A model generated the notes under the pieces. That model ran no database searches and was not told where the DNA came from. It saw nothing but the letters and a program-made list of their open reading frames with translations. From Cognaticolwellia beringensis (GTDB lineage: Bacteria > Pseudomonadota > Gammaproteobacteria > Enterobacterales > Alteromonadaceae), in the NCBI RefSeq assembly GCF_002076895.1, contig NZ_CP020465.1:744001-808000 (forward strand): DNA of 64,000 nucleotides. Reading direction: 5' to 3'. Made by a program: the position numbers and the translations under genes. Shown piece by piece: positions 34,354 through 60,169 of the stretch. How positions within the stretch are numbered: position 1 is the stretch's first letter; each line of letters starts with the position of its first letter.

Positions 34354-35133
34354 ATGTCCAAATTAAGCAAGAAAAGCCTTATCGCATCGACGATAATTGG
34401 CGCACTAGCATTTTCAGCAAGCAACTTCGCTGCTGCAGACGCATTAACAGAACTACAAAAAGCCGAAGCTCAAATTTTTAAAGCTTCAAGTAAATCACAA
34501 AGCAAAATAGACAATATTTACGGACAAACTCAAGAGTTGTTAGCTGAGTACCGTAATACAGTCGATGAAGCTGACGTGTTAAGCGGCTATAACGATCACG
34601 TTCAACTTATGGTTGACGATCAAAAAGCTAATATCCAATCATTACAAAAGCAAATTGCTGGTATAGATAAAACCAAGCAAGGCGTAGTACCTCTAATGTA
34701 CAAAATGATTGACACGTTAGAGAAGTTTGTTGACCTTGATGTTCCTATGAACATTGATGCACGTAAAGAGCGTATTGCTGGTTTACGTGATGTAATGGGT
34801 GATTCAGATGTATCAGTATCTGAACAATTTCGTTTAGTGCTTGAAGCATATGAAATTGAAGCCAGTTACGGCACTATATTCGGTGTGTATCAAGGTGAGC
34901 TTGACTTAGGTGATCGTATGATTACTGCAGACTTCGTTCACATGGGTCGTATTTCTTTTGTTGCTCAATCTCTTGACATGAAAAACTCTTGGGTTTGGAA
35001 CAATGAGAAGCGCGCATGGGAAGCTTTAGGTGACGAATACTTGAAACCTGTTACTGATGCCGTTCGTATGGCTCGTAAGCAATTACCACTTGATCTAGCT
35101 AAACTACCCGTATTTGCAGCAGGAGCAAAATAA
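34354..35133 (+). CDS. DUF3450 periplasmic coiled-coil protein of the TonB2 system
   Basis: This is a 259-aa exported protein with a signal peptide (SKKSLIASTIIGALAFSASN, cut near AAA-DAL). A long N-terminal coiled coil (about 25-115) is followed by a globular part. I start at ATG 34354 (MSKLSKKSLI; GGGAA upstream) instead of the TTG at 34318. DUF3450 genes regularly precede the large ExbB-like TtpC gene in Vibrio, Shewanella and relatives. The stop and the next start share one base (TAATG), so translation is coupled. The role in TonB energisation is inferred from context. Confidence 0.88.
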   Translation: MSKLSKKSLIASTIIGALAFSASNFAAADALTELQKAEAQIFKASSKSQSKIDNIYGQTQELLAEYRNTVDEADVLSGYNDHVQLMVDDQKANIQSLQKQIAGIDKTKQGVVPLMYKMIDTLEKFVDLDVPMNIDARKERIAGLRDVMGDSDVSVSEQFRLVLEAYEIEASYGTIFGVYQGELDLGDRMITADFVHMGRISFVAQSLDMKNSWVWNNEKRAWEALGDEYLKPVTDAVRMARKQLPLDLAKLPVFAAGAK

Positions 35134-36476
35134 TGAAAAAAGTTATTAATTTCGTATTATTTGCTGCTTCAATGACAGTAGCAGCTTCAGCTTCGGCCAA
35201 TCAGTTAGACGACTTATTAAAACAAGTCAAAAATGACCGTATTTCTGAAGCAAAAATTGATAAAAAACGTGAAGCAGAATTTATGTCTGCACGTTCTGAC
35301 AAGCAATCTTTATTGAATAAAGCTAAAACAGAACTAGCAAATCAACAAGCAAGAAACAAACGTTTAACGAAAGAGTACGCTGCTAACGAAATTACATTAG
35401 CGCAAAAAGCTGTAGAGTTAGACAATGCCCAAGGTACTTTAGGTGAAATGTTCGGTGTAAGTCGTGCAGCTGCAGCTAATGCATACGGTTCAATTGTTAC
35501 ATCAATTGTTTCAGCTGAATACCCAGGCCGTGGCGAAACGTTAGACAAAATTGCTAACTCAAAAGCCATTCCTGAACTTGAGCAACTTGAAGAATTATGG
35601 TTTGCCTTGCAAACTGAAATGACTCAATCAGGTGAAGTTTCTAAGTTTACTACAGAAGTAACTAACTTAGATGGTTCAAAGTCAACTGAGTCAGTAACAC
35701 GTATCGGTACTTTCAACTTAGTATCTGAAAACGGTTACCTAAACTACAATGATGAAGTTGGTCAAGTACAGCCACTAGCTAAGCAACCTGCTGGTTATAT
35801 TGCTGGTGCTGCTTCTTCTTTCTTCGGTGTAACTTCAGGTTACGCTCCTTTATATGTGGATCCATCTCGTGGTGCTATCTTAACGCTAGAAACGCGTAAG
35901 AAAACACTAATGGAATTCTACCATGAAGGTAAAGAAGTTGGTTATGCTATCACTGTATTGTTAGTTATTGGTCTACTTATTGCCTTAGAGCGTATGATTG
36001 TTCTTGGTAACATGAGTTCTAAAATTCGCACTCAAGAGAAGAACCTTGATCAACCGAATGACAACAATCCACTTGGCCGTTTGTTAAAAGTTTACTTTGA
36101 TAACAAATCGGTTGATGCAGAAACACTAGAACTTAAACTTGATGAAGCTATATTACGTGAAACACCAAAAGTTGACCGTGGTATTAACTTAATCAAAATG
36201 TTCGCTGCAATTGCACCACTAATGGGTCTATTAGGTACAGTAATCGGTATGATTATGACGTTCCAAACGATTACATTGTTTGGTACAGGTGACCCGAAAA
36301 TTATGGCGGGTAACATCTCACTAGCACTTGTAACAACAGCTCTAGGTTTGATTTGTGCATTACCACTAATCTTAATACACAGCATCGTAGCTGGTAGAAG
36401 TAAATCTGTATTACAAAAATTAGACGAGCAAAGCGCTGGCTTAATCGCTGCTATTGCCGAGAAGGAGTCTAAATAA
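35133..36476 (+). CDS. ttpC: TtpC-like MotA/TolQ/ExbB proton-channel protein
   Basis: This is a 447-aa ExbB-like protein with a long periplasmic extension. A signal sequence (about 1-22) is followed by a coiled coil (about 25-100), a periplasmic domain to about 265, and then three membrane segments: about 270-288, 347-370 (MFAAIAPLMGLLGTVIGMIMTF, the ExbB/TolQ signature) and about 390-415. Vibrio TtpC is the essential extra component of the TonB2 complex. It is coupled to the genes on both sides by one-base TAATG overlaps. Confidence 0.9.
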   Translation: MKKVINFVLFAASMTVAASASANQLDDLLKQVKNDRISEAKIDKKREAEFMSARSDKQSLLNKAKTELANQQARNKRLTKEYAANEITLAQKAVELDNAQGTLGEMFGVSRAAAANAYGSIVTSIVSAEYPGRGETLDKIANSKAIPELEQLEELWFALQTEMTQSGEVSKFTTEVTNLDGSKSTESVTRIGTFNLVSENGYLNYNDEVGQVQPLAKQPAGYIAGAASSFFGVTSGYAPLYVDPSRGAILTLETRKKTLMEFYHEGKEVGYAITVLLVIGLLIALERMIVLGNMSSKIRTQEKNLDQPNDNNPLGRLLKVYFDNKSVDAETLELKLDEAILRETPKVDRGINLIKMFAAIAPLMGLLGTVIGMIMTFQTITLFGTGDPKIMAGNISLALVTTALGLICALPLILIHSIVAGRSKSVLQKLDEQSAGLIAAIAEKESK

Positions 36477-37000
36477 TGTTATTCCTGATAGAGCTTTGGG
36501 AATCTGTCAGGAGTTTTATTGCGACTGGCGGTAACGTGCTTTACGTTGTTGCCTTCGCACTCTTATTGATGTGGATAATGATGATAGAGCGTTATTGGTT
36601 CTTATCTAAAGTTTATCCAAAAATGAAAGACGATATCGTCGGACGTTGGGATGCGAGAGAAGATACTACTTCTTGGTATGCACATCGAATTAGAGATACT
36701 TGGATCTCCGAAGCGACAGAACTACTAGAGCAACGTATGCTCACAATTAGAACCTTGGTGGCAATGTGTCCACTAATTGGTTTACTTGGTACCGTAACCG
36801 GCATGATCGGTGTGTTTGAAGTTATGGCACAACAAGGTACTGGTAATCCGCGTCTGATGGCGTCTGGTATATCAATGGCAACAATCCCGACAATGGCGGG
36901 TATGGTTGCAGCATTATCAGGAGTGTTTTTCAGTTCAAGGTTAGACGCTAAAGTTAAACTAGCAAAGGCTAAACTGGTTGACAGTTTACCTCATCACTAG
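36476..37000 (+). CDS. exbB: ExbB-type biopolymer transport protein
   Basis: This 174-aa inner-membrane proton-channel subunit has the usual ExbB length. Membrane segments lie at about 17-36, 96-118 (VAMCPLIGLLGTVTGMIGVF) and about 128-150. It pairs with ExbD to convert proton flow into TonB motion. It starts one base before the end of ttpC. Confidence 0.95.
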   Translation: MLFLIELWESVRSFIATGGNVLYVVAFALLLMWIMMIERYWFLSKVYPKMKDDIVGRWDAREDTTSWYAHRIRDTWISEATELLEQRMLTIRTLVAMCPLIGLLGTVTGMIGVFEVMAQQGTGNPRLMASGISMATIPTMAGMVAALSGVFFSSRLDAKVKLAKAKLVDSLPHH

Positions 37001-37012
37001 AGAGATATTCGA

Positions 37013-37414
37013 ATGGCACGTAAACGTATTCGTGAGGACGAAGAAGCAGTTATAGATATGACACCGATGCTTGACATCGTATTCATTATGCTGATTTTCT
37101 TTATCGTAACTACTTCTTTTGTTAAAGAAGCTGGTATTGAAGTTAATAAACCTAAAGCGGCAAATCAATCTAAACAAAAGTCAGCTAATATCTTTGTTGC
37201 AATTAAAGATAATGGCGAAATTTGGTTAGATAAGCGTCGTGTAGATGTTGAACGCGTAGCGGCCAATATTGAAAAATTATTGGCTGAGCAACCAACTGAT
37301 GTTGTAATCATTCAAGCTGACAAAGACGCAAAACATGGCGTAGTTGTTAAAGTAATGGATGCAATTAAAGAAGCGGGCATAGACAGAATTTCTATCGCTG
37401 CAGCTAAGGGGTAG
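37013..37414 (+). CDS. exbD: ExbD-type biopolymer transport protein
   Basis: This is a 133-aa protein with one N-terminal membrane segment (about 20-40) bearing the conserved proton-path Asp in the motif IDMTPMLDIVFIMLIFF, and a small periplasmic domain. It is the ExbB partner, 12 bp after exbB and 3 bp before tonB. Confidence 0.96.
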   Translation: MARKRIREDEEAVIDMTPMLDIVFIMLIFFIVTTSFVKEAGIEVNKPKAANQSKQKSANIFVAIKDNGEIWLDKRRVDVERVAANIEKLLAEQPTDVVIIQADKDAKHGVVVKVMDAIKEAGIDRISIAAAKG

Positions 37415-37417
37415 TCT

Positions 37418-38035
37418 ATGGTTCGCTTTTTAGTATCTATACTACTAGGCGCGGCAGTAACATTTGCTTTGTTTGCTTTTATGGCGTTTCTTGTTTCTAG
37501 CGGTGATAGAACCAAGGAAGAAGCCTTAGAAAACATCATAGTAGAAGTTAATACGACGCCACCTAAGTCAGCTGCAGAACGCCGTCAACGTGTTCCGCCG
37601 CCGCCGCCGCCGCCGCCTAAAACGCCACCTAAGCCTCAAGCTCCAGAGCCTGAGACTAATAATGATTCTGGTGGATTAACGTTTAATATGCCTGGTGTTC
37701 AGTTAGCCGGAGCAAATGCAGGTATTTCTGCACCTGGTGCTGGTTTTGGTCGTGACGGAGATGCAACACCGATAGTTCGTATTGAGCCTAAATACCCAAT
37801 ACAAGCTGCTCGTGATGGTAAAGAAGGTTGGGTTACGCTTTCATTTACTATCAATGAAATTGGTGGTGTTGAAGATGTTGATGTTATTGAAGCCGAGCCA
37901 AAGCGCGTTTTTGACAAAGAAGCTAAAAGAGCTTTGCGAAAATGGAAGTACAAACCGAAAGTTGTTGATGGTAAACCTATGAGACAACCTGGTTTGACTG
38001 TACGACTTGACTTTAAAATGGACGGAGGAAATTAA
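37418..38035 (+). CDS. tonB: TonB energy transducer (TonB2-type)
   Basis: This is a 205-aa protein. An N-terminal anchor (about 1-26) is followed by a short proline-rich spacer (VPPPPPPPPKTPPKPQ, about 63-78) and a C-terminal TonB domain (about 115-203) with YPIQAARDGKEGWVTLSF. The spacer is short compared with TonB1, as in TonB2 proteins. It transfers energy to TonB-dependent receptors, including probably the two in this window. It is packed between exbD and the TPR gene. Confidence 0.95.
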   Translation: MVRFLVSILLGAAVTFALFAFMAFLVSSGDRTKEEALENIIVEVNTTPPKSAAERRQRVPPPPPPPPKTPPKPQAPEPETNNDSGGLTFNMPGVQLAGANAGISAPGAGFGRDGDATPIVRIEPKYPIQAARDGKEGWVTLSFTINEIGGVEDVDVIEAEPKRVFDKEAKRALRKWKYKPKVVDGKPMRQPGLTVRLDFKMDGGN

Positions 38036-38037
38036 TA

Positions 38038-39297
38038 ATGAATAAGATTTTTTCATCTTTACTGTTAATTATTTCAGTTGTTCTAATTCAATTGCCAATG
38101 GTTGCAGAAGTTTCTGCAGCCGGCGCTGAAGATTCAGAAAAGCCAAAGCGTAAAACTCAGCTTGTTGGTCCTAGTGTTGGTAAAAAAGTAGGTAAAGCCT
38201 TTGAATCTTATTCAGCGGATGATATTCCAGGTGCTTTAACTATTCTTTTAGATATTGATGCTAAGAAAGACTACGACAAAGCTTATGTTGCTCGTTTTAT
38301 AGCGGTTATGTATGCAACTATGGGTGATGAAGAAGCTAACGCGATCAAATACCTAAAAATTGCTGTAGAACCTGACATTCTCAATGAGGGTGATCATGGT
38401 GAAGCGATTAAGTTGTTAGCTGATTTGCAGATGCAAACAAAAGCGTATGAAGAAGCCCTAGTCAATTATAAAGCTTGGATGGATTTTACGGGTAAATCAG
38501 ATGGTGATACTTGGACTAAAATAGCTAATGCACATTATGCGTTGAAACAATTAGATAAAATGATTGTTCCAGCAGATAATGCGATTGCAGCTTACGGTGA
38601 CAAGCAAAACAAAAATCCTTATATATTGAAAGTTACTTCATTTTATGAAAATAAAAAATATAAAGATGCTGTTAAAACGCTTGAAACTGTTATTCAAATA
38701 TTCCCAGAAGATAAAACTTGGTGGACTCAACTTGGCATGTTTTACTTGCTAGTTGAAGATTATCAGAAAGGTCTAGAAACACTTGACCTGGCTTATAAAC
38801 AAGGTTTCCTTGTTAAAGAATCTGAAATTAAAACACTAGCAAGTTTATACTCGCAAAATGCAGTGCCTTACAAAGCGGCTTTATTGCTAGAAAAGCATAT
38901 AGACTCTGGTTTAGTACCTCGTGATGATAAAAACTTATCTTCACTAGCTAACGCTTGGCATGCTGCTCAGCATATCGATAAAGCGGCTAAGTATTACGGT
39001 GAATTGGCTAAAATGACTAACCTTTCTAAGCATTACAGCAAGCAAGGTATGTTATTAAAGCAGGATGAACAGTTTAAACCAGCAATTGTTGCGTTAAGCA
39101 AAGCTTTAGAGCTTGGTGTTAAAGATGAAGGTAAACTGCATATGAGTATTGCAGAATCACACTTTTATTTAGAACAGTATAAGCAAGCTTACAAAGCTAT
39201 TAGTCTTGCGATGAAAGATCCTAAAACCCGAAGATCAGCAAAGGGTTGGGAAAGTTTCATTAAAGACACAGCACAACGTAAAAAAGTTTCTATCTAA
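38038..39297 (+). CDS. TPR-repeat protein of the TonB2 operon
   Basis: This is a 419-aa exported protein with a signal peptide (about 1-29) and a helical TPR/Sel1-like array over most of its length (for example YVARFIAVMYATMGDEEANA, YKAWMDFTGKSDGDTWTKIA, LSKALELGVKDEGKLH). TPR genes commonly end ttpC-exbB-exbD-tonB operons in marine gammaproteobacteria and are likely periplasmic scaffolds. The start is 2 bp after the tonB stop, and a strong terminator follows. Confidence 0.9.
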   Translation: MNKIFSSLLLIISVVLIQLPMVAEVSAAGAEDSEKPKRKTQLVGPSVGKKVGKAFESYSADDIPGALTILLDIDAKKDYDKAYVARFIAVMYATMGDEEANAIKYLKIAVEPDILNEGDHGEAIKLLADLQMQTKAYEEALVNYKAWMDFTGKSDGDTWTKIANAHYALKQLDKMIVPADNAIAAYGDKQNKNPYILKVTSFYENKKYKDAVKTLETVIQIFPEDKTWWTQLGMFYLLVEDYQKGLETLDLAYKQGFLVKESEIKTLASLYSQNAVPYKAALLLEKHIDSGLVPRDDKNLSSLANAWHAAQHIDKAAKYYGELAKMTNLSKHYSKQGMLLKQDEQFKPAIVALSKALELGVKDEGKLHMSIAESHFYLEQYKQAYKAISLAMKDPKTRRSAKGWESFIKDTAQRKKVSI

Positions 39298-46663: not shown

Positions 46664-47641
46664 CTAGTTAGTAAAAAGTCCGTTGAGCTCTTGCTTAGCT
46701 AAATAATTATCCATCGTTGAACGCAACAGTTTGTAAAGCAGTATTGAACCGTCAATTTCTTCTTTACGGTTGGTTAAACTCTCAATATTAAGCCCTAGAG
46801 GTAATTTGTAGGGTAATACAGCATCGAGTATTTGTACTAAGGTATTGCTGCAAATTCTAATTGATTCGTATAATGGTTTTTCAGCATTTAAAATGCGTAA
46901 ACTTGTTGCTTCAGGAACACTAACACCAAGCCATTCAATAAACTCTAACGTTTTCTTACTACCACAAGGCGAGAAGGTTAAAATGATTCGTTGTGGTTTA
47001 ATACCTTGTTGCTGACACTCAATAGCATAGCGGGTTAACACATCAATGGTTGCTTGAGCATTATAAATAGCTTGCGAGATAAAAAAGTTACAGCCTTGTT
47101 GATGTTTTTCAATTAATTTAGCATGCTCATTACCTTTATTCGCATGGCGCTCAGCGATAGTAATACCGCCAATAAAAAAATTGTTTTCATTGGCGACTAA
47201 AGTTTTATAGGCCTCGCCCAAAGGCAGACTAATATTATTTTGCTGGGAAGGACTGCCGACAAGTACAATGTCGCGAATACCATAGTCATGCCAAGCTTCG
47301 TTAGCCCATTGATTAAAGTCATCACTATTTGATTGCACAACGCTTTTGTAAGTGATCACGGGGCGGTTTGACTTTTGCTGTAAAAGTGAGGAATAAAGTC
47401 GAGGGTCATGAGTCGACTTAAACGGAAAAGGGCGCGGCTTTGAAGTTCGTGAATCTTCATTCTGAATGTCATAAACAATTAAACCGTCAAAGTCGATATC
47501 GCTAACTCGTTCAAGTAACTTGTCTGCAATTGTCGATACTTGCTCGGTTGGAGTATCACTTTTAGGCGGTGTTGTGCCGATAAAGTAAACGCCACGATTG
47601 ACGTCATTATATCGTGCTCTTAGTTCTGAACCATTCTTCAC
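46664..47641 (-). CDS. Methylenetetrahydrofolate reductase-like TIM-barrel protein
   Basis: This 325-aa protein resembles the MTHFR superfamily: DGLIVYDIQNED near the N-terminus, DIVLVGSPS, a GGITIAERH strand and QQGCNFFISQAIYNA, the last matching the substrate/FAD-side region of MetF. It lacks the length and several motifs of canonical MetF and starts with an unusual GVYFIGTTPPK. It may be a divergent folate-linked reductase. No met genes adjoin it. Confidence 0.6.
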   Translation of the reverse strand: MKNGSELRARYNDVNRGVYFIGTTPPKSDTPTEQVSTIADKLLERVSDIDFDGLIVYDIQNEDSRTSKPRPFPFKSTHDPRLYSSLLQQKSNRPVITYKSVVQSNSDDFNQWANEAWHDYGIRDIVLVGSPSQQNNISLPLGEAYKTLVANENNFFIGGITIAERHANKGNEHAKLIEKHQQGCNFFISQAIYNAQATIDVLTRYAIECQQQGIKPQRIILTFSPCGSKKTLEFIEWLGVSVPEATSLRILNAEKPLYESIRICSNTLVQILDAVLPYKLPLGLNIESLTNRKEEIDGSILLYKLLRSTMDNYLAKQELNGLFTN

Positions 47642-47797: not shown

Positions 47798-48751
47798 TTA
47801 TGTCGATGCCACAATATCTATTTGATGAAGTATTTCATCTTTATTTTTTAACAGTTTTATAGCATTAAATAAGCTTTCTGCTTGCGGATATTGTAGTCTC
47901 AAATAGCGCAGCCATTGTTTTAAACGACTTGAAAAATAGAAGCTTTTATCACCTTGTAACTCTAATTCACTGTAGCGTTTTAATATGCCGATAAGTTCAG
48001 ACCAAGGCATGGGTGTTTCATCAAACTTAATCACATTAGCCAAATTTGGCAAAGCTAGTGCACCACGGCCAAGCATTAAATTAGGCGTTTGGCTTTGACT
48101 TATACAGTTTTCGGCGTCATTTTTATTCCAAATTTCACCGTTAGCAAAAATTTCAATATCATATTTTTTTCTAACTTCGGCAATAAAGTGCCAATAAGCC
48201 GGAGGGCGATAGCCATCTTGTTTTGTTCTGGCATGAATTGTTAATTGATTAACATGGGCTGATTGCACAGCGCTAACAATTTCATCTAATTTTGAGGCAT
48301 CAGTAAATCCGAGTCTTATTTTTGCAGACAAGGTAGCGTCTACGCCAATAGCACTCCTCATTTTAGCCATAATTTGATGTATTTTTTCTGGCTCATTTAG
48401 TAATACAGCACCGCCTTTGCTTTTGTTCACCGCCTTAGCAGGACAGCCAAAATTAACGTCAATACCGTGTGAGCCCATAGCGAGTGCTCTGACTGCATTT
48501 TCAGCCATCCAGTCAGGTTCTTGGCCCAGTAGTTGCATTCTTAAAGGGGTGCCGCTTTGAGTCATACAGCCATAGTCTAATTCGGGACAAATTTTTCTAA
48601 AAACATGCTTCGGCAATAAGGAGTCAACAACGCGAACAAATTCCGTTACACAAAAATCATAATTGTTTAAAGATGTTAATAAATGCCTCATTAACTCATC
48701 AGCCACGCCTTCCATAGGGGCTAAGATTATTTTTTTTACTTGTGGTTTCAT
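47798..48751 (-). CDS. dusC: tRNA-dihydrouridine(16) synthase
   Basis: This 317-aa flavoenzyme reduces uridine in tRNA. The FMN-barrel start is ILAPMEGVAD, the active-site Cys is in VNFGCPAKAVNKSKGGAVLL, and TIHARTKQDGYRPPA and ANGEIWN follow. The PAKAVNKSKGGA stretch and the length point to DusC rather than DusA or DusB. It is divergent from the Cys-repeat protein gene. Confidence 0.92.
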   Translation of the reverse strand: MKPQVKKIILAPMEGVADELMRHLLTSLNNYDFCVTEFVRVVDSLLPKHVFRKICPELDYGCMTQSGTPLRMQLLGQEPDWMAENAVRALAMGSHGIDVNFGCPAKAVNKSKGGAVLLNEPEKIHQIMAKMRSAIGVDATLSAKIRLGFTDASKLDEIVSAVQSAHVNQLTIHARTKQDGYRPPAYWHFIAEVRKKYDIEIFANGEIWNKNDAENCISQSQTPNLMLGRGALALPNLANVIKFDETPMPWSELIGILKRYSELELQGDKSFYFSSRLKQWLRYLRLQYPQAESLFNAIKLLKNKDEILHQIDIVAST

Positions 48752-48914
48752 GGAGATAAAGCTAGGCTCAATGGTGTTGTAAAAACAAAAAGGTTATTAA
48801 AATTAATTGAAAAAAATTTACAGCGCTTGAAATTTATTTTCATTGTATATGGTCTTTGTAAATAGCTATACGTATAGATGTAGTGTCAAATTGATAAAAC
48901 AAAAGGAAAACAGT

Positions 48915-49373
48915 ATGAAATTAATTAAAAAATCTTCAATTGCGGCTTTATTAGGCTTGTTTGCATTAGCAGTTGCGGCATCAATGCCAGTAAAAGCAGA
49001 AACTAATCCATTTGCTGTTCAAGATGTAATGACCATAGTGTCTGCTGATGAACACGAGAAAGGTAAGTGTGGCGAAGGCAAATGTGGCGAAGGAAAAATG
49101 AAAGACAAAGCCAAAGGTAAATGTGGCGAAGATAGAATGAAAGACAAAGCCAAAGGCAAGTGCGGTGAAGGCAAGTGCGGCGAAGGAAAAATGAAAGATG
49201 CAGCCAAAGGTAAATGCGGCGAAGGCAAATGTGGTGAAGGTAAAATGAAGCACGAAGCCAAAGGTAAATGTGGTGAAGGCAAAATGAAAGATAAAGCCAA
49301 AGGCAAATGTGGTGAAGGTAAATGTGGTGAAGGTAAAGCCGCAAAAGCTAAAGAAGGTAAGTGTGGCGAATAA
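48915..49373 (+). CDS. Secreted Lys-Cys-Gly-Glu repeat protein, HvfA-like RiPP metallophore precursor candidate
   Basis: This is a 152-aa protein. The start is ATG 48915 (AAAAGGA upstream); the frame opens earlier at 48843 but without homology or a ribosome site. A signal peptide (about 1-28, cut near PVKA-ETN) is followed by a Lys/Gly-rich region with 11 Cys, all in KCGE. Cys positions are 52, 57, 70, 83, 88, 101, 106, 119, 132, 137 and 150; every spacing is 5 or 13. EGKCG motifs are the modified sites of HvfA-type RiPPs, where an MNIO enzyme converts Cys to oxazolone-thioamide groups that bind copper. No DUF692 (MNIO), DUF2063 or DoxX gene is within the window, so it is an orphan here. The alternative is an unmodified metal-buffering repeat protein. 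Confidence 0.75.
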   Translation: MKLIKKSSIAALLGLFALAVAASMPVKAETNPFAVQDVMTIVSADEHEKGKCGEGKCGEGKMKDKAKGKCGEDRMKDKAKGKCGEGKCGEGKMKDAAKGKCGEGKCGEGKMKHEAKGKCGEGKMKDKAKGKCGEGKCGEGKAAKAKEGKCGE

Positions 49374-49414: not shown

Positions 49415-49443
49415 AAAAACCACTTCACTTGAAGTGGTTTTTT
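49415..49443 (+). terminator. Rho-independent terminator after the Cys-repeat gene
   Basis: The stem ACCACTTC/GAAGTGGT with a four-base loop is flanked by A and T runs. Confidence 0.9.
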
Positions 49444-49493: not shown

Positions 49494-49997
49494 ATGAGCA
49501 ATAATATTGTTATTACTGGCGCAAATCGTGGCATAGGTTTAGCCATGTGCATGCATTTTAAAGCGCAAGGAGATAATGTATATGCGCTGTGTCGAAAATC
49601 GTCTACTGAGCTAGAAGCCCTTGCAGTTAATATTATTGAAGATATCGATGTAGCAAGTGACCTTGGTATTGCTACTATGGTATCAGCATTAAGCTCTGTG
49701 CATATTGATGTACTGGTGTGTAACGCCGGTATTTTACGTGATGAAAGCCTAGCCGAACTTAACTTAGATACCATACGTGAACAGTTTGAAGTTAATGCGG
49801 TAGCACCACTGAGAGTTGTTGCTAGCCTGCAAAAACAACTGAACGAAGGGGCAAAAATAGCGCTTATCACTTCCAGAATGGGCTCTATTAGCGATAATGG
49901 TTCAGGCGGGCGTTATGGTTACTTTTCGTCACTGTGTATTGAACGAATTATTTGTAGATATTTTTCTTTGTGTTATTGTATCTACAAAGCTACATAG
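49494..49997 (+). pseudogene. SDR-family dehydrogenase, 3' part displaced by island insertion
   Basis: The first 143 codons are a good short-chain dehydrogenase: NAD(P)-binding GANRGIG (9-15), NAG (about 77-79), catalytic-Ser region ALITSRMGSISDN and GGRYGY ending at Tyr143 (TAC 49920-49922). In intact relatives the text continues YRMSK, so Tyr143 is the YxxxK tyrosine. From 49923 homology stops and about 24 unrelated residues (FSSLCIERII) lead to a stop. The catalytic Lys and the C-terminal third are missing. The rest should lie beyond the right end of the island, outside this window. Confidence 0.88.
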
Positions 49998-50008
49998 TGG
50001 TAAGTTAA
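49923..50008 (+). mobile_element. Left terminus of the genomic island (attL region)
   Basis: Host SDR sequence ends at about 49922 and the recombinase operon starts at 50009. The 86 bases between contain a perfect 10-bp inverted repeat, TTTGTAGATA (49951-49960) and TATCTACAAA (49979-49988), a candidate recombinase binding site. The island extends to at least base 64000. The exact crossover base needs the right end or an empty-site genome. Confidence 0.7.
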
Positions 50009-51139
50009 GTGTTGACTAAAAAAGAGTTTGTAATTAAAAAGCACGGCATCGATTCAACCTATTGGGCGTTTTTCCAAAAAAATGGGGAAATAGATATAAC
50101 CCCCACTATTTTGTTTGCCAAAATGTGTGAAGCAGACAGAAAAAGAAGCTGGGAGCTAAGCACTATTGAGCAGTATGCGAGTATTATAGCAATGTTCTTT
50201 GGAACAATGAGGATGTATCAAGCTACTATTCAAACTATAACCACAAAAGAGACGCAAGGCTTTATGCAAGCCTTATACATGAAAGAACTACCTTTTCAAG
50301 AGAAAGACGGGAATCCTACATCAATATCGCGCATGAATTCTGTTGAAACAGTATTAATCGATCTGGTTGAAAAAGCCGCTCAATTTGGATTTAGAGAAGA
50401 CAGGAGCCTATCATTTAATTACAAAGAAATCTCAGGGACACTTGGGAAGCTTGATGATGCGGATAGAATCCACCAATGCTACATTCCTACTGGTTTGTTT
50501 GAAGAACTAATAAAGCATTTGAAAGTCGATGGGGACTTTGAAAAAGAGAGAGATGAAATAGCACTAAGAGTCGGGTATGAGTTAGGAGTAAGGGCGGAGG
50601 AGCTAGTGCGAAAGAATAACTTTTCTATTGAAAGGTTTAAAAAAGCCCGATTAACCTACAAATTTGGTGATGAAATTGATTTGAGAAATATTATTGGGAA
50701 AGGGTCGAAGGGGGGGAAGGCAAGAAATGTAATCATAAAACCTAAGTTAGCGGTTAAAGTTTTCGACTTTATAGAGAAACACAAAGCTATATACAAAAAA
50801 AGTGAGCACTTGTTTTGCCACCGAAGTGGAAGAAAGCTTTCCCCAAGACATGGAACGACGACTTTTCGGAATGCAAAAAATAATTTGAATCACCATGAAC
50901 TAAATAACAAAAGTTTTCAAAAGTTACGACACTCATATGCTACCAATATGGCCATTTTCTGTCGTAAAAATGGAATAAATTCGCGCCTTATCCAAGACAG
51001 GCTTGGCCATGCTAACTCCAGTACGACTCAACTCTACATTGAAGTAGCTTGTCTTGTGGAAGGCGACTACGACAAAGCGGAAGAGATGAGAATGGTTCGC
51101 CATGAAAATCGCGATAAAAATAAAAAAAGAAAGAAATAG
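50009..51139 (+). CDS. Tyrosine recombinase 1 of the island (GinA/TnpA-like)
   Basis: This is a 376-aa site-specific integrase with a GTG start. The catalytic residues fit the tyrosine recombinase pattern: R195 (GVRAEEL), R307 (KLRHSYATN), H334 (RLGHANSSTTQ) and nucleophile Y343. The usual His three residues before R307 is Gln304. The N-terminal SAM-like domain covers about 30-135. It is the first gene of a six-gene overlapping operon at the island's left end. The size matches TnpA of Tn554 and the first recombinase of GInt/tri-integrase islands. Its low-complexity basic end is KNKKRKK. Confidence 0.88.
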   Translation: MLTKKEFVIKKHGIDSTYWAFFQKNGEIDITPTILFAKMCEADRKRSWELSTIEQYASIIAMFFGTMRMYQATIQTITTKETQGFMQALYMKELPFQEKDGNPTSISRMNSVETVLIDLVEKAAQFGFREDRSLSFNYKEISGTLGKLDDADRIHQCYIPTGLFEELIKHLKVDGDFEKERDEIALRVGYELGVRAEELVRKNNFSIERFKKARLTYKFGDEIDLRNIIGKGSKGGKARNVIIKPKLAVKVFDFIEKHKAIYKKSEHLFCHRSGRKLSPRHGTTTFRNAKNNLNHHELNNKSFQKLRHSYATNMAIFCRKNGINSRLIQDRLGHANSSTTQLYIEVACLVEGDYDKAEEMRMVRHENRDKNKKRKK

Positions 51140-51146
51140 GCTCAAA

Positions 51147-53579
51147 ATGGATAATGAAATAACCACAGGGGATGAGATTACAATGGAAAAAGAGGGGCTT
51201 GGTTATCTCTCTAAATATGTCGCAGAGCAAACCATTCATCTAGAACAACTCAAAGACAAAGTGCATTTTAAACTTGATTTGCTAGAAACTGAAGAAGGTA
51301 AATTAACCGATAAAACGCTTGAAATCCCAGAACCATTTAAAAACTCACTTTTTTGCCAAGCAATCATTGCGTACTTATACTATGACGTGTTTATCGGGCG
51401 TAGCGAGTCTACAAAAAGTGGTTATATTGACCTGCTTAATCGTTTCTTTTTATACCTAACAACCCATGACGAAGGCTTAGATAACAATGAAACCTGGGCC
51501 AGATTATTAACCTTGCCAGAGGGGGATTTACCTCACAATGTAATACACCAATTTCTATTGTATCTATCTGAGAATACTGGCACTGGAAGTAATTCGCTTC
51601 ACGGCTACCAGAATAAACTTCTAATAGTGGTAACTTGGGCAACTCAACTTAATATCACAACTGCAGAACCCAACTTTGCTAATGGTAATAAGCTACTCCC
51701 TTATGTGTCAGATCAAAATAACCCTGAAATAAAAAAGGATGATGTCACGCCTAAGCCAGCACTATCGCAACTCTTTACTATTAATTATGAAACAGGTGAA
51801 GAAATTAAGTGTCCTTATTCTGATTCTAAACTTATAACTAACTTGCGCTGGTTTGCTATGTGGTACCTCAATACCATGCGCCAAAAACGACTTTTCTTAC
51901 GTAAAATAATGTGGGATGAAGAGCGAACTATTTATGAGGTTTTAAAAGACAGGATAGAAGATGGTACTTGGTCTATAGAATGCGCCCCATTAAGTTCAAT
52001 GTATGGGAGAGCGACGAAAACACCTATAACTGATTATCTCGAAGCGAGCGCTATGTATGCTAAAGTTTACGAGGCTCTATTACCTTCAAAAGTTGAGGCT
52101 AAAAAAATGTCTGGAGGCGAGATATCTTCAAACCTTGAAAATAGACTGATGTGGGCTGAGTCAGAAGGACATTCGACACAGAATTTTATACGCTTAGTAA
52201 AAAGCTTACCAGAAGAAGAGAGCTCTAGTGCAAGTATCATTAAAAGATTGGAAGAGCAAATATCATACAATTCAACAGTTTCACCTTCCAAAAATAAACA
52301 TGAAAGCATAAAGGTTCCAATTAGGCTTTATTGCGGAAAAAAATTAAGAGCATCTCCGATACCGAACTTTAGCTTAGCATCAATGATTATACCAACAAAA
52401 TCAGAAAACCTTGTCATGTCTTGGTTGCTTTCCTCTGAGAGCATTCAATCGTCAAATAAATACAGGTTAAAATTAGATGATTTAAAGCAATTTAATCGAG
52501 GGAATACATTACAAGCTATCACTGATGATATTCAGGTAGATTCCATTAAATTCGTTCATCACAAGGGCCGTTCGAAAGATAAAGCCAAACGAAGAACTGG
52601 TCAAGATTTTAAAACGATTGAATATAAAAAAGGAGACCCCCTTTTTACTACATACATAAACTGGCATAAAGATATGAAGCAAGCACAGCCTTATATAACT
52701 AAGCAGCAAGAAGCATGGCTTTATTATGGGCGTAGGGAAAGATTAACTGGGGGCTCTCTTATAAATCTTAGCTTCTTAGTTGCAAAGGATAGCTTATTTA
52801 AAAGTGCTTTTAAAAAATCGGAGAAAGAACTAAAGTTTCACAGTGAAGTCAATGGTGAAGGGGCATTTCAATGGCTATTTACTCAATTCATCATAAATCA
52901 CGCAAATTTTTTGAAAATTCGTCACACACGCCATTTGAATAATCGTAATACCCCAAAAGAGATCTCTTTGAGTTCAGATGCTATACGCCAAAGCAGAATC
53001 ATCTTTGAAGAAAGCGAAGATATAACTGACAAAGAAAACGCAAAACGCACCGCTCACAGCGAACAGCAGGTCGATGCATACAGAGAGAACGGTGTAGCCA
53101 AAGAACGCATCCAAAATGGTATAAAAGCCAATATACAAATCTCTAACAAGATGTATGAGGAAGCTGTAAGTATCGTAGACACATACCACCTGTTGAGCGT
53201 CGATGAAGTTGATAAACAATTTCATGCCCCAAAAGGAATGTCTAATGACGATGTGATTGGGTTTATTAATGAATGTGCAGCAACCCCAAAAAAATATGGC
53301 GTGACTATTTTTGGCGGAATAATGGATAAATCAAACCCCGAGGGCGGCATAATAATCATTAAGGATGTGAAGTCTGCTTGGATGATGCTCTGCTACATTA
53401 ATCACATGGAGTCTGAGCTTGAACAAATCAAAGAGAACCATGATAAACAACAGGTAGGGGAACATATATTTAAGCACGCTCAATGGTCAATGCTATTTGA
53501 ACGCTTCCCTATTGAAATGCAAGAGCAAGCCAAAGAACTTGCTAAGACGCATACTATACCTTACCCACCATTGTTTTAG
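51147..53579 (+). CDS. Large integrase-like protein 2 of the island (GinB-like)
   Basis: This is an 810-aa protein. I place the start at ATG 51147, 7 bp after the previous stop with AGG upstream; an in-frame ATG at 51102 overlaps the previous gene. I cannot see a complete tyrosine recombinase signature: there is an Arg-rich NTMRQKRLFLRK (near 245-255), an IRHTRHLNNRN segment near 590-600 that may be the His-x-x-Arg region, and Tyr-rich parts. It is probably the second, divergent member of the recombinase trio (similar in size to the large partner in GInts or the VPA1269/GmtZ type). This is inference from context. Confidence 0.65.
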   Translation: MDNEITTGDEITMEKEGLGYLSKYVAEQTIHLEQLKDKVHFKLDLLETEEGKLTDKTLEIPEPFKNSLFCQAIIAYLYYDVFIGRSESTKSGYIDLLNRFFLYLTTHDEGLDNNETWARLLTLPEGDLPHNVIHQFLLYLSENTGTGSNSLHGYQNKLLIVVTWATQLNITTAEPNFANGNKLLPYVSDQNNPEIKKDDVTPKPALSQLFTINYETGEEIKCPYSDSKLITNLRWFAMWYLNTMRQKRLFLRKIMWDEERTIYEVLKDRIEDGTWSIECAPLSSMYGRATKTPITDYLEASAMYAKVYEALLPSKVEAKKMSGGEISSNLENRLMWAESEGHSTQNFIRLVKSLPEEESSSASIIKRLEEQISYNSTVSPSKNKHESIKVPIRLYCGKKLRASPIPNFSLASMIIPTKSENLVMSWLLSSESIQSSNKYRLKLDDLKQFNRGNTLQAITDDIQVDSIKFVHHKGRSKDKAKRRTGQDFKTIEYKKGDPLFTTYINWHKDMKQAQPYITKQQEAWLYYGRRERLTGGSLINLSFLVAKDSLFKSAFKKSEKELKFHSEVNGEGAFQWLFTQFIINHANFLKIRHTRHLNNRNTPKEISLSSDAIRQSRIIFEESEDITDKENAKRTAHSEQQVDAYRENGVAKERIQNGIKANIQISNKMYEEAVSIVDTYHLLSVDEVDKQFHAPKGMSNDDVIGFINECAATPKKYGVTIFGGIMDKSNPEGGIIIIKDVKSAWMMLCYINHMESELEQIKENHDKQQVGEHIFKHAQWSMLFERFPIEMQEQAKELAKTHTIPYPPLF

Positions 53580-53590
53580 GGGCTTTTAAC

Positions 53591-55567
53591 ATGGCAGTAA
53601 AAGAAGATATACACAATGGCATTGTTGAAGGCTTGGTTGAGCCACAATCAACAACTCCTAGAGTAAAGTCTACTGGGGCAATAAACCAGCTAGGCCAACC
53701 AATATGGATAATAAAAGATAGGTCAACTGACGAGTTAATGAACTTACACTTTAGCAGTATTGATGAGCGAAATTTAATTTGGGTTCAAAAAATGATACTT
53801 CATGACTTTCCTTATCAGGATGGGTATAACACATTGAGCTATGCGCACAGCACAATGAGGAAGCATAAAAATGGAATTGAAAAACTGCTTACTCAACTTA
53901 ATAAGAAGGAAGGACCCAAGAAACTATTAAATAATTGGACAATGAAAGATGTAACTTCTTGTATTAAGGATACGGCGATTGATGATGGAGTATTAATGTC
54001 CAATGGAACAGTGAGGTTATTACTGGAGGCACTTAAAACAAGCTATTCGATGCGTCACAAACAGGACGGAATTGAACTCTCTATTCCCAACGTTATCTTA
54101 GTGAGGGTAATGACACCTATACTTGAAAACTTTGACTTGACATACTCGCAGTGGGAAAGAGGAGAAAGTTTTGGCATGGTACCAATGCCGGTCGCTACAC
54201 TGATGCTAGCTGATGCTATTAAACTGATACGCAGTGAAAAATGTCAATTACTGCAATGCTATTTCACATCCTTCAAAGATAAAGAAATATCCTTAGCAAT
54301 CATAAACGGAACAGCCCACAAAAAATCAATATTCAAAGATAATATTTCTGGTTTCATAAAGTTTAACCCTAAAAGTGCTCATAATAAATCCCACCAAAAA
54401 CGACTGGAATTTGTAAAAAAAATACATGCTATTAACCCTGAACTCACTGATTTTCCGTTTAAGTCATTTAGCCAAATAAATGATTGCGTAGAAGAAATAC
54501 ACGGAGCATGCATAGCTATACTGCTATCAGTTACATTGATGCGTATTAGTGAGTGTCATAGCGTCGGATCTGACTGGATGGAAGCTATTGAATATCTAGA
54601 TGTCAATGGAGAATGGGATGTAGATGCAATACTTAAATCTAAAATCATTAAGACAGGCGGAGGCATTGTTGCTAAAAGAGGTTTATCACCCCTTGGAGTT
54701 GAAGTAATTAAATTAATCAACACTCTATCATGGGTTGATAAAGAAGCACTAGGGTTAAAGCTTTTTGTTCCGACATATAAAGGTAATTGGACAAAAAAAA
54801 ACATACCTGGCAATATTAAGAGAGCCTTTAGTAAAGTCACTTTACGGAAAAGACTAAAATCATATTACCATAAGTTTATAGCGCGCTCTCATAAATCTGT
54901 TGCTGAGACTTACCCTGATATTATTCCTCATAACTTACGTCACCTGAAAATGGCATTCGGCTTGCGTAAGTTCGATGGTAATCTTGAAGCTACAATCAGG
55001 CAGGAAATGCGTCACAACAACCCTCATACACAAGCCTATTCTCTAAACAAACTAAACGAAGTGGAATCAGCACAAGTGAGAAGAGATTTTGTAAGTGAAG
55101 TGGTAAAGCGCATATTAATTAACGACCAGGAAGATAAGTGGGTTGGCCCATCAATCAAGAAAGTAAGAAAGCTTGCTAAAAAACTTTTAGGTGATAGAGA
55201 TATTAAAATGCTATCCCTAGTGGAATTAGCAGAGTTTCATGAGGAAATTAACGAAAACGTACACACCATGATGTTCCACAGCTACGGAGCCTGTATTGTG
55301 CTAAACGACGAAATAAAGGTAGCTCAATGCAGTATTAAGGACAACATAGTGATGGCGGGGTCTGCGACCTCAAGTAAATGTCAAATATGCACTAATTTTT
55401 GCGTTAATAATAAGTCTCACGAACACAATATGCTAACAAATAAAGCGAGATGGCAAGACACCGCAGATTGTGAAATCATTGCTTCTTTCCCTATTGTGGC
55501 CGAAGCCAAGAAAATGGTACAACACATTGAAAAGTTAGAGGCTGAACTGGTGGCGAGCGATGAGTGA
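53591..55567 (+). CDS. Tyrosine recombinase 3 of the island (GinC/TnpB-like)
   Basis: This is a 658-aa recombinase. Catalytic pattern: R318 (LMRISECHS), H447-x-x-R450 (PHNLRHLKMAF), H475 (MRHNNPHTQAY) and Y483. After the catalytic domain comes a Cys/His-rich stretch (CQICTNFCVNNKSHEHN, about 597-613) that could bind zinc. The size resembles TnpB of Tn554 (about 630 aa). It starts 11 bp after gene 2 and overlaps gene 4 by 8 bp. Confidence 0.85.
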   Translation: MAVKEDIHNGIVEGLVEPQSTTPRVKSTGAINQLGQPIWIIKDRSTDELMNLHFSSIDERNLIWVQKMILHDFPYQDGYNTLSYAHSTMRKHKNGIEKLLTQLNKKEGPKKLLNNWTMKDVTSCIKDTAIDDGVLMSNGTVRLLLEALKTSYSMRHKQDGIELSIPNVILVRVMTPILENFDLTYSQWERGESFGMVPMPVATLMLADAIKLIRSEKCQLLQCYFTSFKDKEISLAIINGTAHKKSIFKDNISGFIKFNPKSAHNKSHQKRLEFVKKIHAINPELTDFPFKSFSQINDCVEEIHGACIAILLSVTLMRISECHSVGSDWMEAIEYLDVNGEWDVDAILKSKIIKTGGGIVAKRGLSPLGVEVIKLINTLSWVDKEALGLKLFVPTYKGNWTKKNIPGNIKRAFSKVTLRKRLKSYYHKFIARSHKSVAETYPDIIPHNLRHLKMAFGLRKFDGNLEATIRQEMRHNNPHTQAYSLNKLNEVESAQVRRDFVSEVVKRILINDQEDKWVGPSIKKVRKLAKKLLGDRDIKMLSLVELAEFHEEINENVHTMMFHSYGACIVLNDEIKVAQCSIKDNIVMAGSATSSKCQICTNFCVNNKSHEHNMLTNKARWQDTADCEIIASFPIVAEAKKMVQHIEKLEAELVASDE

Positions 55568-56204
55568 TTTCTTTAAACAATTTGAAAAAGAACAACCAAA
55601 GGTTGAGGAAGTAGAGGCTGAAATCAAAGAATACCCTGATTGGGTTCTTCACGCCAAAAGCCCTGATAAGACCATGATTATGTTTGATGTAGTGGTAGAC
55701 CTATATGAAAAGGCAAAGGATAAAATTAAAAGAAGGGACTACGAACATACTAGGGAGGTCACGCTTTCAAACGCACAGGTCATTAAAGCCACCCCCTTTC
55801 TTGAATCGCGTTCTGCGTTAAAGAACCACCAGGGCATTGTCGGTTGGATCAAACTTAAAAATGAAGACTTAGCAAAGCGACTTCTTGACGCTAAAGCAAA
55901 AGGTAAGGGAGTATCCACAGCAAGAAAAACCAAGGATATGCTTCGGGCTGAGCGTGATGAATACATAGGTAAGCATACAGCTAAAACACAAATTGAGATG
56001 GAACACCTAATTCAAAGTGACATGCTAGTCTCACACGCAGACTCAATTCGAGTAAATGCTGAGCAAAAGAAAACTATCAATGAACTACATAAAGAAATAG
56101 CTGAAATTAAGCATGCCAACAAATCTCTACAAGAAGAAGTTAGAACCCTACAAGAGAAACTTTTCAAAGATCAAAAGCCTCTTGTTCTAAAAGTTAAGAA
56201 GTGA
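55560..56204 (+). CDS. Coiled-coil accessory protein of the island (GinD-like)
   Basis: This is a 214-aa highly charged protein. The first half has a compact region (about 20-120) with KNHQGIVGWIKLKNEDLAKR; the C-terminal part (about 150-205) is a coiled coil (ELHKEIAEIKHANKSLQEEV). It has no catalytic motif. It overlaps recombinase 3 by 8 bp, so the two are translated together. The position matches the small fourth gene of ginABCD modules. Confidence 0.65.
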   Translation: MSDFFKQFEKEQPKVEEVEAEIKEYPDWVLHAKSPDKTMIMFDVVVDLYEKAKDKIKRRDYEHTREVTLSNAQVIKATPFLESRSALKNHQGIVGWIKLKNEDLAKRLLDAKAKGKGVSTARKTKDMLRAERDEYIGKHTAKTQIEMEHLIQSDMLVSHADSIRVNAEQKKTINELHKEIAEIKHANKSLQEEVRTLQEKLFKDQKPLVLKVKK

Positions 56205-56339
56205 ACTTATATCAACCTAGTAAGCCTGTTCATGGACTTATTCACGTTTTTTGACATAAGTCCAGCCAATGTTAGTGTGAACCTAATTTACAATATATGT
56301 CGACCAAACTTTAATCGAAAAATTAAAAGAGAAAAAACA

Positions 56340-56768
56340 ATGAGTTCTGTTGGGAAAAATCAAAACATCCAGAAATGGAATGACTGGAAAGGAAATATGA
56401 CCGATCAGCAATACGTGCAGATGGTTCATGACAATAAACTGAGTCGAAAAGTTATTGCAGAAGCATGTGGTTTCTCTAAATCTGCTCTCAGACAAAATCC
56501 TACGATAGCAAAGGAACTTGCTGAGCTTGAAAATGATCTAAGAAACCGGCTTATTCTGCCACCTTTAACACCCAAAGGTGAAGATGAATCACGAACACCC
56601 AAAGCAATACAAAAAGAATCAATGAAGGCCGCTAGGGAACAGTCCAGAGTTCCCGAACTAGAACAGCGCATACTAGAGCTTGAAGCAGAAAATAAAGCCC
56701 TAAAGGGGAAGTTGGGACGCTTTAGCGAATTAAGTGACGTTTTTATGGATATGGAGGAGTTAAGATAA
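56340..56768 (+). CDS. Small HTH/coiled-coil protein of the island (TnpC/VPA1267-like)
   Basis: This is a 142-aa protein. The start is ATG 56340 (MSSVGKNQNIQKWNDW), not the upstream 56232, because the protein-like sequence begins there. An HTH-like segment lies at about 30-55 (KLSRKVIAEACGFSKSALRQ), with a coiled coil at about 105-135 (VPELEQRILELEAENKALKG). Its place resembles TnpC of Tn554 and the VPA1267-type proteins I recall from Vibrio islands; that likeness is from memory. It overlaps the helicase gene by one base (TAATG). Confidence 0.65.
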   Translation: MSSVGKNQNIQKWNDWKGNMTDQQYVQMVHDNKLSRKVIAEACGFSKSALRQNPTIAKELAELENDLRNRLILPPLTPKGEDESRTPKAIQKESMKAAREQSRVPELEQRILELEAENKALKGKLGRFSELSDVFMDMEELR

Positions 56769-58996: not shown

Positions 58997-59727
58997 TGAT
59001 AGGGGGCCACCTCCTGTAAACACCACTCTAAAACCGTAACCTAAACAAAGCTTAACATTAAGTTTGCATTCTTTGGTTGCTTGTTTCATGGGATACACAA
59101 TAATTATTTGTGACTACGCATAATGTTTGAAATTGACTCTTAATAATCACTAATGCCACTTACTGACCTTATTTAGGTGTTAAAAAAACACCTCAAAAGG
59201 ACGGCTTTTAGCCAAAAGCGGAAGTTAGCTTTTGAGTTAAAACGGCAGATCAGGGACCCTAAAGTTGTCGTTTTTATATAAAAACTCACATCCATTCACA
59301 ATTGAGATTGTGCCGAAAATTTTTTCACGGAATTAGATCTCAAATCCCCAAAGCGGACATTGAATCATGCATGTAAGCTTTAAATAAATTTAGAGTATTA
59401 AATCTAAGGCGCTTTCGCCCCCCACGCGAGTTAGCGTCTCCTTCAAGCTCAGACTGTGTGAAAACTATTTTGAACTTGCGTAATTCGGAAATAACAACGA
59501 AAAAAGGCTCTGTAGATTTAAATCTGTAGTATGTTTGGTGTCAAACTACCTTTGAATTTACGTAGCGTTGCATAAAAATTGTAAGCTGAGAGTTTTCACA
59601 CAGCTTTAGCTCAAAACAGACACTCACCGTTATTAGCAATAATGACTTAATTGAACGATAAGCAATCGTTTAATATACTTCATTTCACAGATTGTAAAAT
59701 CATTTAAATTTATAAGTGACTATAGGT
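58997..59727. other. Non-coding junction between recombination module and metal cargo
   Basis: About 730 bases without a gene, richer in GC than its flanks in places. It contains a 13-bp perfect inverted repeat pair bounding 150 bp (59454-59603), and the promoter of merR must lie at its right side. It may mark a former insertion boundary. Confidence 0.55.
59446..59611. mobile_element. MITE-like or IS-remnant element bounded by inverted repeats
   Basis: CTGTGTGAAAACT (59454-59466) and AGTTTTCACACAG (59591-59603) are perfect inverted repeats. Both are followed outward by AGCT-containing, partly matching bases, so the ends may be about 20 bp with mismatches. The interior of 124 bp has no gene. 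This suits a miniature inverted-repeat element. No target duplication is certain. Confidence 0.5.
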
Positions 59728-60105
59728 ATGAAGACAATTGGCAAGCTCGCCAAAGAGTTAGATATAAATGTTGAGACCATAAGGTTTTATGAAAAAAAAG
59801 GGCTTATTTCTCAACCAATAAAGCCAGAAAATGGTTATCGTTTATATAGTAGTGCTATTGCAGACAAGCTTAGGTTTATCGCTAAAGCAAAAGCTCTTGG
59901 CTTTACATTAAAAGAAATATCCTCATTAATGTCTATGGAAAATAACTGCGCCCAAGTAGAAAGTCTAGGTTTGCAAAAATTAGATATAATTCGAAATAAA
60001 ATATTTGATTTACAGCGTCTAGAGAGCGTTATTAGTAAAATGACTAATTCATGTAAAACCAATCAAGACCAATACTCTTGCCCTATTATTGACTCATTAA
60101 AGTAA
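59728..60105 (+). CDS. merR: Mercury-responsive regulator MerR
   Basis: This is a 125-aa MerR-family regulator starting at ATG 59728 (MKTIGKLAKELDINVETIRF); a GTG at 59716 would add four residues. The winged HTH is at about 1-70. The three Hg(II)-binding cysteines of MerR are all present: C74, C109 and C118, with spacings 35 and 9 identical to Tn501/Tn21 MerR (82, 117, 126). It activates a promoter with a 19-bp spacer upon Hg binding. It is co-directional with merC, and the operator lies immediately after its stop codon rather than upstream as in divergent mer operons. Confidence 0.93.
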   Translation: MKTIGKLAKELDINVETIRFYEKKGLISQPIKPENGYRLYSSAIADKLRFIAKAKALGFTLKEISSLMSMENNCAQVESLGLQKLDIIRNKIFDLQRLESVISKMTNSCKTNQDQYSCPIIDSLK

Positions 60106-60108
60106 TTG

Positions 60109-60140
60109 TTGACTCCGTATCTATATACGGAGTTTATCGT
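60109..60140 (+). promoter_or_regulatory. mer operator/promoter of merC
   Basis: The -35 TTGACT (60109-60114) overlaps a 9-4-9 dyad, ACTCCGTAT (60112-60120) and ATACGGAGT (60125-60133). The -10 region, about TTATCG/TATCGT, begins after a 19-20 bp spacer. Dyad and long spacer are as in Tn21 PmerT. Confidence 0.9.
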
Positions 60141-60169
60141 GATTATAAATTACTTAGGAATGATTCTAT

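Follow-up and report, generated by a model that had tools for sequence, protein, structure and literature searches.

A 64,000-nucleotide stretch of Cognaticolwellia beringensis DNA (hereafter the window) carries a gene for a 152-residue Cys-repeat protein. In our reading, to which we give a probability of about 0.58, this gene represents a distinct, vertically inherited, standalone HvfA-like EGKCG subfamily of the Colwelliaceae that has parted from the MNIO and PME genes, has an ECF-type promoter and encodes a Sec-exported protein with an unmodified thiol or soft-metal role in the periplasm. The protein belongs to the EGKCG sequence family and not to the MNIO-modified RiPP class as that class is defined by its enzyme. 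No enzyme was found in this genome or in many of its relatives, and the Cys residues and a stress-type promoter have been kept, so the protein probably works unmodified.

The Cys-repeat gene and its surroundings

The features of the window on which the argument draws are as follows.

34354..39297, + strand: DUF3450-TtpC-ExbB-ExbD-TonB-TPR cluster, which the standalone EGKCG gene follows in Colwellia and Thalassotalea
47798..48751, - strand: dus (PF01207, dihydrouridine synthase), divergent, a neighbour in many relatives
48828..48855, + strand: candidate ECF-sigma-type promoter, TGAAATTT-N15-GGTCT within TGAAAT-N17-GGTCT, 59 bp before the ATG, from upstream alignment
48915..49373, + strand: standalone EGKCG/KCGE-repeat gene, ATG start, 152 amino acids, 11 Cys
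48915..48998, + strand: predicted Sec-type signal peptide, M1 to A28, cleavage between VKA and ETNPF, by eye
49062..49370, + strand: Cys array of tandem repeats, 11 KCGE units, spacing 5/13, KGKCG in 6/11 and EGKCG in 5/11
49415..49442, + strand: intrinsic-terminator-like hairpin with a 12-bp stem, 1 seen against 0.5 in shuffles
49494..49922, + strand: SDR gene, the downstream neighbour in most members of the genus, interrupted at ~49922 by an island

A recount placed the 11 Cys at residues 52, 57, 70, 83, 88, 101, 106, 119, 132, 137 and 150, with intervals of 5, 13, 13, 5, 13, 5, 13, 13, 5 and 13, and found all of them (11/11) in KCGE, in agreement with the preliminary description of this DNA. 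The same description spoke of EGKCG motifs, which is accurate for five of the 11 Cys, while the other six lie in KGKCG. Composition-matched shuffles of the mature part (20,000) gave at most two KCGE, against 11 in the real protein. Pairwise comparison of the codons of the KCGE repeats gave 82 synonymous and 0 non-synonymous differences, and the repeat is therefore kept at the protein level. The signal peptide reported earlier is Sec-like, with cleavage at A28 as read by eye, and a short NPF-containing linker lies between it and the array; the protein would be exported by Sec.

The description of the protein as HvfA-like was also borne out: it matches NCBIfam NF050137 (HvfA family domain, EGKCG/KCGE repeat) at 77 bits, above the cut-off of 19.5. 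The HvfA equivalog model NF050188 scores it at 59.6 bits against a cut-off of 95. In a control, however, 4/10 MNIO-linked and 0/10 standalone relatives passed this model, so it separates the two kinds poorly and is not decisive; its score was rejected as a classifier for that reason. No family was matched in a Pfam search with the 152-residue protein. AlphaFold2 models of a standalone and an MNIO-linked form were both poor (mean pLDDT 44.4 and 41.4), too poor for a statement about the fold: neither reproduced the beta-helix of PMC12452194, and a fold difference between the two forms was discarded as a candidate because the models could not show any.

The hairpin behind the gene and the divergent dus before it make a single-gene transcript probable. 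The TonB cluster lies 9.6 kb from the gene, and a large TonB-dependent receptor-like gene (28514-31513, by eye) lies upstream of that cluster. A conserved protein at 46664-47641, with 89-98% identity in the genus, shows a below-cut-off likeness to methylenetetrahydrofolate reductase. On the other side, the SDR ORF runs from 49494 to 49997, its nucleotide likeness to a relative (G163) stops at 49922, and the corresponding ORFs are longer in relatives. The island (49923-64000) begins inside the SDR gene at ~49922. It holds one clear tyrosine recombinase (50009-51139), a second gene with an integrase match just below the cut-off, a RecD-like helicase and, by eye, a MerR-type regulator, a Mer-like membrane protein, a CDF transporter and a CzcA-type RND pump. 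Such a set of genes is likely a heavy-metal island, lying 0.6 kb downstream of the Cys-repeat gene.

Distribution of the enzyme and two kinds of EGKCG protein

The genome consists of one contig of 4,661,274 bases (completeness 100). Profile searches of the complete genome for PF05114 (MNIO) and PF09836 (the DUF2063/PME partner) gave no match, whereas the positive controls in Caulobacter were matched. Alignment of 13 MNIOs from relatives gave no match to this genome at E<=1, and tblastn of MNIO seeds against the window returned chance-level hits (best E 0.03 over 50 residues). A search of the genome for a second EGKCG precursor found none. One YcaO gene is present, ~259 kb from the Cys-repeat gene, of a family that also has matches in E. 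coli.

These results go further than the preliminary description, which called the gene an orphan after seeing no MNIO within 14 kb: that was right but too weak a statement, with no PF05114 or PF09836 match anywhere in the genome and an MNIO in only 7/17 genomes of the genus. Its suggestion that a distant MNIO might serve the protein does not apply here, where the PF05114 search and the MNIO alignment found no such enzyme and the PF09836 search no DUF2063 partner; a distant MNIO is possible in the 7/17 genus genomes that have one at other loci. It had proposed a genome search for DUF692 and DUF2063 genes and for further EGKCG precursors, and counted a genome with no MNIO, together with an unmodified protein, against its view. 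None of these genes was found, which supplies the first half of that counter-evidence.

The MNIO-less state of the protein is lineage-wide and extends beyond this genome. Within the genus, an EGKCG protein occurs in 17/17 genomes and any MNIO in 7/17 (the ten without one include G250, which is 66% complete). An MNIO beside an EGKCG gene was found in G249 alone of the 17, where the EGKCG gene next to it is an additional copy, belongs to the other type and has a product that bears a GY motif; G249 therefore has both EGKCG forms. Among 246 genomes from the family, the EGKCG domain is present in 180 and an MNIO in 177: 143 have both, 37 EGKCG only, 34 MNIO only and 32 neither. The 37 EGKCG-only genomes fall in genera g52 (8), g38 (8), g1 (6), g8 (4), g27 (3), g34 (3) and five others (1 each); 31 lie outside the genus, four of these not being of high quality. 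MNIO alignment at E<=1 against 20 of 41 EGKCG-positive, MNIO-negative genomes gave no match in 19 and one weak match (E 0.03, G174). A full-length relative from Colwellia sp. BRX10-3 (P0002) carries the UniRef name HvfA family oxazolone/thioamide, and no MNIO was seen in its genome (G228). Table 3 of PMC12452194 gives EGKCG without MNIO in 67 of 2583 complete EGKCG genomes, and the available text of that paper names two options for such cases: working unmodified, or no longer being expressed or functional.

We compared 122 distinct proteins with at least three KCG each among the matches listed (L001-L031, L087-L212; 30 loci from 180 positive genomes, and the best 80 of 316). Of these, 41 are MNIO-linked (an MNIO no more than 3 kb away, always on the same strand, gaps of 0-198 bp) and 56 are standalone (no MNIO, flanks of 2.5 kb or more on each side). 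The remaining 25, which had no MNIO and a flank shorter than 2.5 kb, were left out of this comparison; four of them had GY. One locus (L118) was unreadable and one genome (G120) gave no locus. Two N-terminal marks, defined in this analysis and not in print, distinguish the classes among the matches listed: a GY motif between the signal peptide and the first KCG (39/41 MNIO-linked, 1/56 standalone) and a GA-V-V-like motif in the signal peptide (34/41 and 1/56). The protein of the window has neither. Among EGKCG-positive, MNIO-negative genomes outside the genus, 29/30 loci were readable and GY occurred in 0/29.

In an N-terminal tree of 98 rows and only 52 columns, the GY region among them, a branch with 100/99 support sets apart 56/57 standalone proteins, among them that of the window, and this standalone clade spans several genera. 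For the contrast between the two classes, the Fisher value of 1.6e-23 overstates the case, as the sequences share ancestry and the tree includes the GY columns. The exception, L173 (Pseudomaricurvus), falls among the MNIO-linked proteins and is also the one standalone protein with GY. Pseudomaricurvus alcaniphilus has two EGKCG loci, L173 and L203, the former with GY and no MNIO within 3 kb. The record named Endozoicomonas sp. G2_1 (L166) groups with Thalassotalea in both tree and gene order, and its name appears doubtful.

The arrays differ as well. All array Cys of the 56 standalone proteins among the matches listed lie in KCG (597/597, excluding one further Cys before the array in L160), and Glu follows in 572. 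The three residues before these Cys are EGK in 273, KGK in 216 and others in 108, against EGK in 460/490 units of the MNIO-linked proteins listed. At position 1 of EGKCG, three residues before the Cys, the listed MNIO-linked units are acidic in 490/490, whereas the standalone units are acidic in 294/597 and Lys in 254/597. In the available text of PMC13097082, turnover by FonBC was blocked when both repeats had Arg at position 1, and by no other non-Pro change at positions 1-2. Lys at position 1 in 43% of standalone units fits a loss of substrate status, although it differs from the Arg tested there. The Sec signal peptide acts in a leader-like manner for HvfBC (PMC13419390, in the text available), and the changed signal peptides of the standalone proteins matter for this reason. 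On the other hand, single Ala substitutions upstream of the core were all tolerated by FonBC (PMC13097082, section 12), and an absent GY would therefore be insufficient by itself to prove a loss of modification.

Gene order points to long residence. Among the matches listed, 53/56 standalone genes share a block made up of DUF3450-TtpC-ExbB-ExbD-TonB-TPR, dus (opposed), EGKCG, a response regulator, apt, dnaX and ybaB, which indicates that the gene is old and mostly vertically inherited; the block is absent from L173, L174 and L187. The full order is found at three Thalassotalea loci and one Thalassomonas locus (L149, L153, L172, L150). Colwellia loci have no dus at that place, and in Cognaticolwellia dus and EGKCG lie a few kb past ybaB, with a dus-EGKCG gap of 0.6-2.7 kb in some. 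The EGKCG gene stands behind the TonB-ExbBD cluster in 30/56 of the standalone loci listed, with dus between in 6/30.

Promoter motif and candidate regulon

No sigma-70-like promoter was found on the + strand near the Cys-repeat gene. The TGAAATTT-N15-GGTCT motif occurs with at most one mismatch before 52/56 standalone genes among the matches listed and is exact in 40 (shuffles, 0). The form TGAAAT-N16..18-GGTCT is exact in 47/56 standalone and 21/41 MNIO-linked genes listed. Since MNIO-linked genes carry the motif too, the regulon is no evidence for or against modification; it seems that the standalone gene lost its tie to the enzyme but retained the family's mode of control.

Eight exact TGAAAT-N17-GGTCT sites occur in this genome, against three for a reversed control. 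Five lie 8 to ~102 bp before an ECF sigma gene, msrA (~54 bp), katG (102 bp), a TonB-dependent receptor gene (70 bp) and the Cys-repeat gene; the other three are not promoters by position, since two fall within ORFs and the third has no start near it. For the ECF sigma gene the distance of 8 bp is valid for the second ATG only, since the longest ORF starts inside the motif. This gene (NF009170 family, near 475 kb of the genome; L275 1482-2700) is overlapped by a DUF3379 gene, whose product is a candidate anti-sigma factor. The literature searched yielded no paper on DUF3379, nor any on 'low-complexity protein' with copper and Colwellia.

Across six Cognaticolwellia genomes the exact motif recurs before the Cys-repeat gene (6), the TonB-dependent receptor gene (6; L219, L217, L220, L218, L273, L274), the ECF sigma gene (6) and msrA (5; the site is ~55 bp ahead of the start in four genomes and 324 bp ahead of it in G007). 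Ten genomes gave 58 exact sites, against 41 for the reversed pattern; 31 regions from these sites plus further known loci were examined. Some sites (L289, L290) recur because they lie inside conserved coding sequence, and it is intergenic recurrence that counts. One-mismatch matches to the 13-base promoter were at control level in four genomes (57 against 58 reversed), so that only exact, recurring sites were used. Elsewhere the motif precedes genes for a glutathione reductase-like protein (G214), thioredoxin-like proteins (G109, G052), an AhpC/TSA protein (G103) and CutA1 (G041). It was also seen 69 and 103 bp before a gene for a membrane protein (277 and 274 amino acids) in G249 and G007 (L296, L298).

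Judged by motif match only, an ECF sigma gene, an msr gene and the Cys-repeat gene share a promoter motif. Motif recurrence supports a regulon of the ECF sigma, msrA, katG, receptor and Cys-repeat genes.

Proposed role and relation to known systems

The preliminary description had offered an unmodified metal sink as one option. This is now the leading idea, although the promoter motif speaks for oxidative or thiol stress no less than for copper. Oxidative or thiol stress would free the ECF sigma, which would direct single-gene transcription from the TGAAAT-N17-GGTCT-type promoter, and the protein would be exported by Sec to the periplasm. There, on a Lys-rich strand, the unmodified KCGE thiols might be oxidised sacrificially and then re-reduced, or might sequester Cu(I) or other soft metals when the envelope is under stress, or both, with the protein acting beside MsrA and KatG. 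That the thiols carry no modification is suggested by the missing enzyme and the missing motifs of MNIO-linked proteins, and their thiol or metal chemistry by the composition of the KCGE array. Thiols in the periplasm are liable to disulfide formation, which counts against a free-thiol reading.

The strict conservation of KCG is what a modifying enzyme would demand, and together with the YcaO gene it favours a RiPP that is still modified, its heterocycles being installed by an enzyme other than a known MNIO (YcaO, radical-SAM or an unrecognised MNIO-like protein). We regard this as unlikely: the YcaO gene is distant and its family is shared with E. coli, nothing MNIO-like was matched in the genome at E<=1, no modification enzyme was seen by eye among the recurrent neighbours of the 56 standalone genes listed, and the N-terminal motifs of MNIO-linked proteins are gone. 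Modification in trans, by an MNIO where a species has one and not elsewhere, this genome included, would suit the seven genus genomes with MNIOs at other loci. It nonetheless appears quite unlikely, because the protein is kept in the ten genomes in which no MNIO was found (the 66% complete G250 among them), and because in G249, the sole genus genome with an EGKCG-linked MNIO, that enzyme adjoins its own GY-bearing precursor.

It is also conceivable that the protein captures metal outside the cell or in the periplasm and that the motif-sharing TonB-dependent receptor imports the metal or the complex. The recurrence of the motif before the receptor gene in 6/6 Cognaticolwellia genomes and the standing of 30/56 listed genes behind a TonB-ExbBD cluster (six with dus between) speak for this, but we hold it to be decidedly improbable: the receptor has a distant likeness to the Fe-pyochelin receptor, with a TIGR01786 match below cut-off only, the other motif-bearing genes mostly serve oxidant repair, and the TonB cluster is 9.6 kb away in the window. 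That the gene is a leftover, decaying after loss of its MNIO operon, can scarcely be credited. EGKCG-only genomes are rare and lost expression or function is one option named in PMC12452194, as cited above; yet the protein occurs in all 17 genus genomes, its KCGE codons differ only synonymously, every array Cys of the 56 listed proteins lies in KCG, the promoter motif is conserved and the clade spans several genera.

If the unmodified reading holds, this lineage, with neither decay nor enzyme, offers a natural experiment on what EGKCG repeats do without 5-thiooxazole, the more so as sister genes in related bacteria adjoin the enzyme and G249 holds both forms. GY, the GA-V-V-like motif and an acidic residue versus Lys at position 1 are offered as marks to sort likely substrates from non-substrates. 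The automatic database name, oxazolone/thioamide HvfA, appears to mislead for this subfamily, which is linked to a promoter motif of the stress type, the candidate anti-sigma factor being a DUF3379 protein. At about even odds, a broader statement would apply: a whole bacterial family would keep an HvfA-like protein, freed from RiPP modification, as a dedicated ECF-controlled buffer of envelope thiols (and soft metals), with a KCGE array functional in itself, and database names denoting an oxazolone/thioamide-modified RiPP metallophore would be mistaken for this clade.

Metallothioneins and bacterial copper storage proteins likewise have many regularly spaced Cys and are possible soft-metal sinks by analogy; the window protein differs from them in having a signal peptide and no Pfam match. 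With the EGKCG captophorins (Buf_EGKCG) HvfA/oxazolin, fontiphorin and gonophorin it has in common the signal peptide, the KCGE/EGKCG repeats and the NF050137 match. It differs from them in that no MNIO or DUF2063 gene was found anywhere in its genome, in the absence of the GY and GA-V-V-like motifs, in a probable single-gene transcript and in a different chromosomal block, and from MNIO-linked relatives in general in the KGK before 216/597 of the listed subfamily's Cys (6/11 here). The preliminary description gave oxazolone-thioamide as the chemistry of the class; this has been superseded in print by 5-thiooxazole (PMC13097082, PMC13419390, in the text available).

The sharing of a motif recalls the published HvfA operon, where an ECF sigma controls the operon and msr genes alike (PMC7907618). 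According to the available text, H. influenzae RpoE2 controls msrAB and a four-gene cluster (COG3767, COG3220, DUF2063, DoxX), with induction by hypochlorite (PMC7907618), and has a counterpart in the similar sigma-E regulon of Neisseria (PMC7907618, PMC2893595). Those regulons combine an ECF sigma with msr genes and either an HvfA-type or an MNIO operon, and here the motif links an ECF sigma gene, msrA and the Cys-repeat gene; there, however, the HvfA-type gene is accompanied by MNIO, DUF2063 and DoxX genes, and here no MNIO or DUF2063 gene was found. The anti-sigma factor of those systems is a small zinc (ZAS) protein, whereas here a DUF3379 gene lies behind the sigma gene, and TGAAAT-N17-GGTCT is unlike the consensus given for Neisseria (GTMAGBWTT / CGTCTAAH with 12-13 nt; PMC2893595). 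Also close are the MNIO-less EGKCG precursors in Table 3 of PMC12452194, which like this one are orphan genes in MNIO-less genomes. There they form a rare category; here they make up a lineage of their own, with motif loss, a conserved gene block and a promoter.
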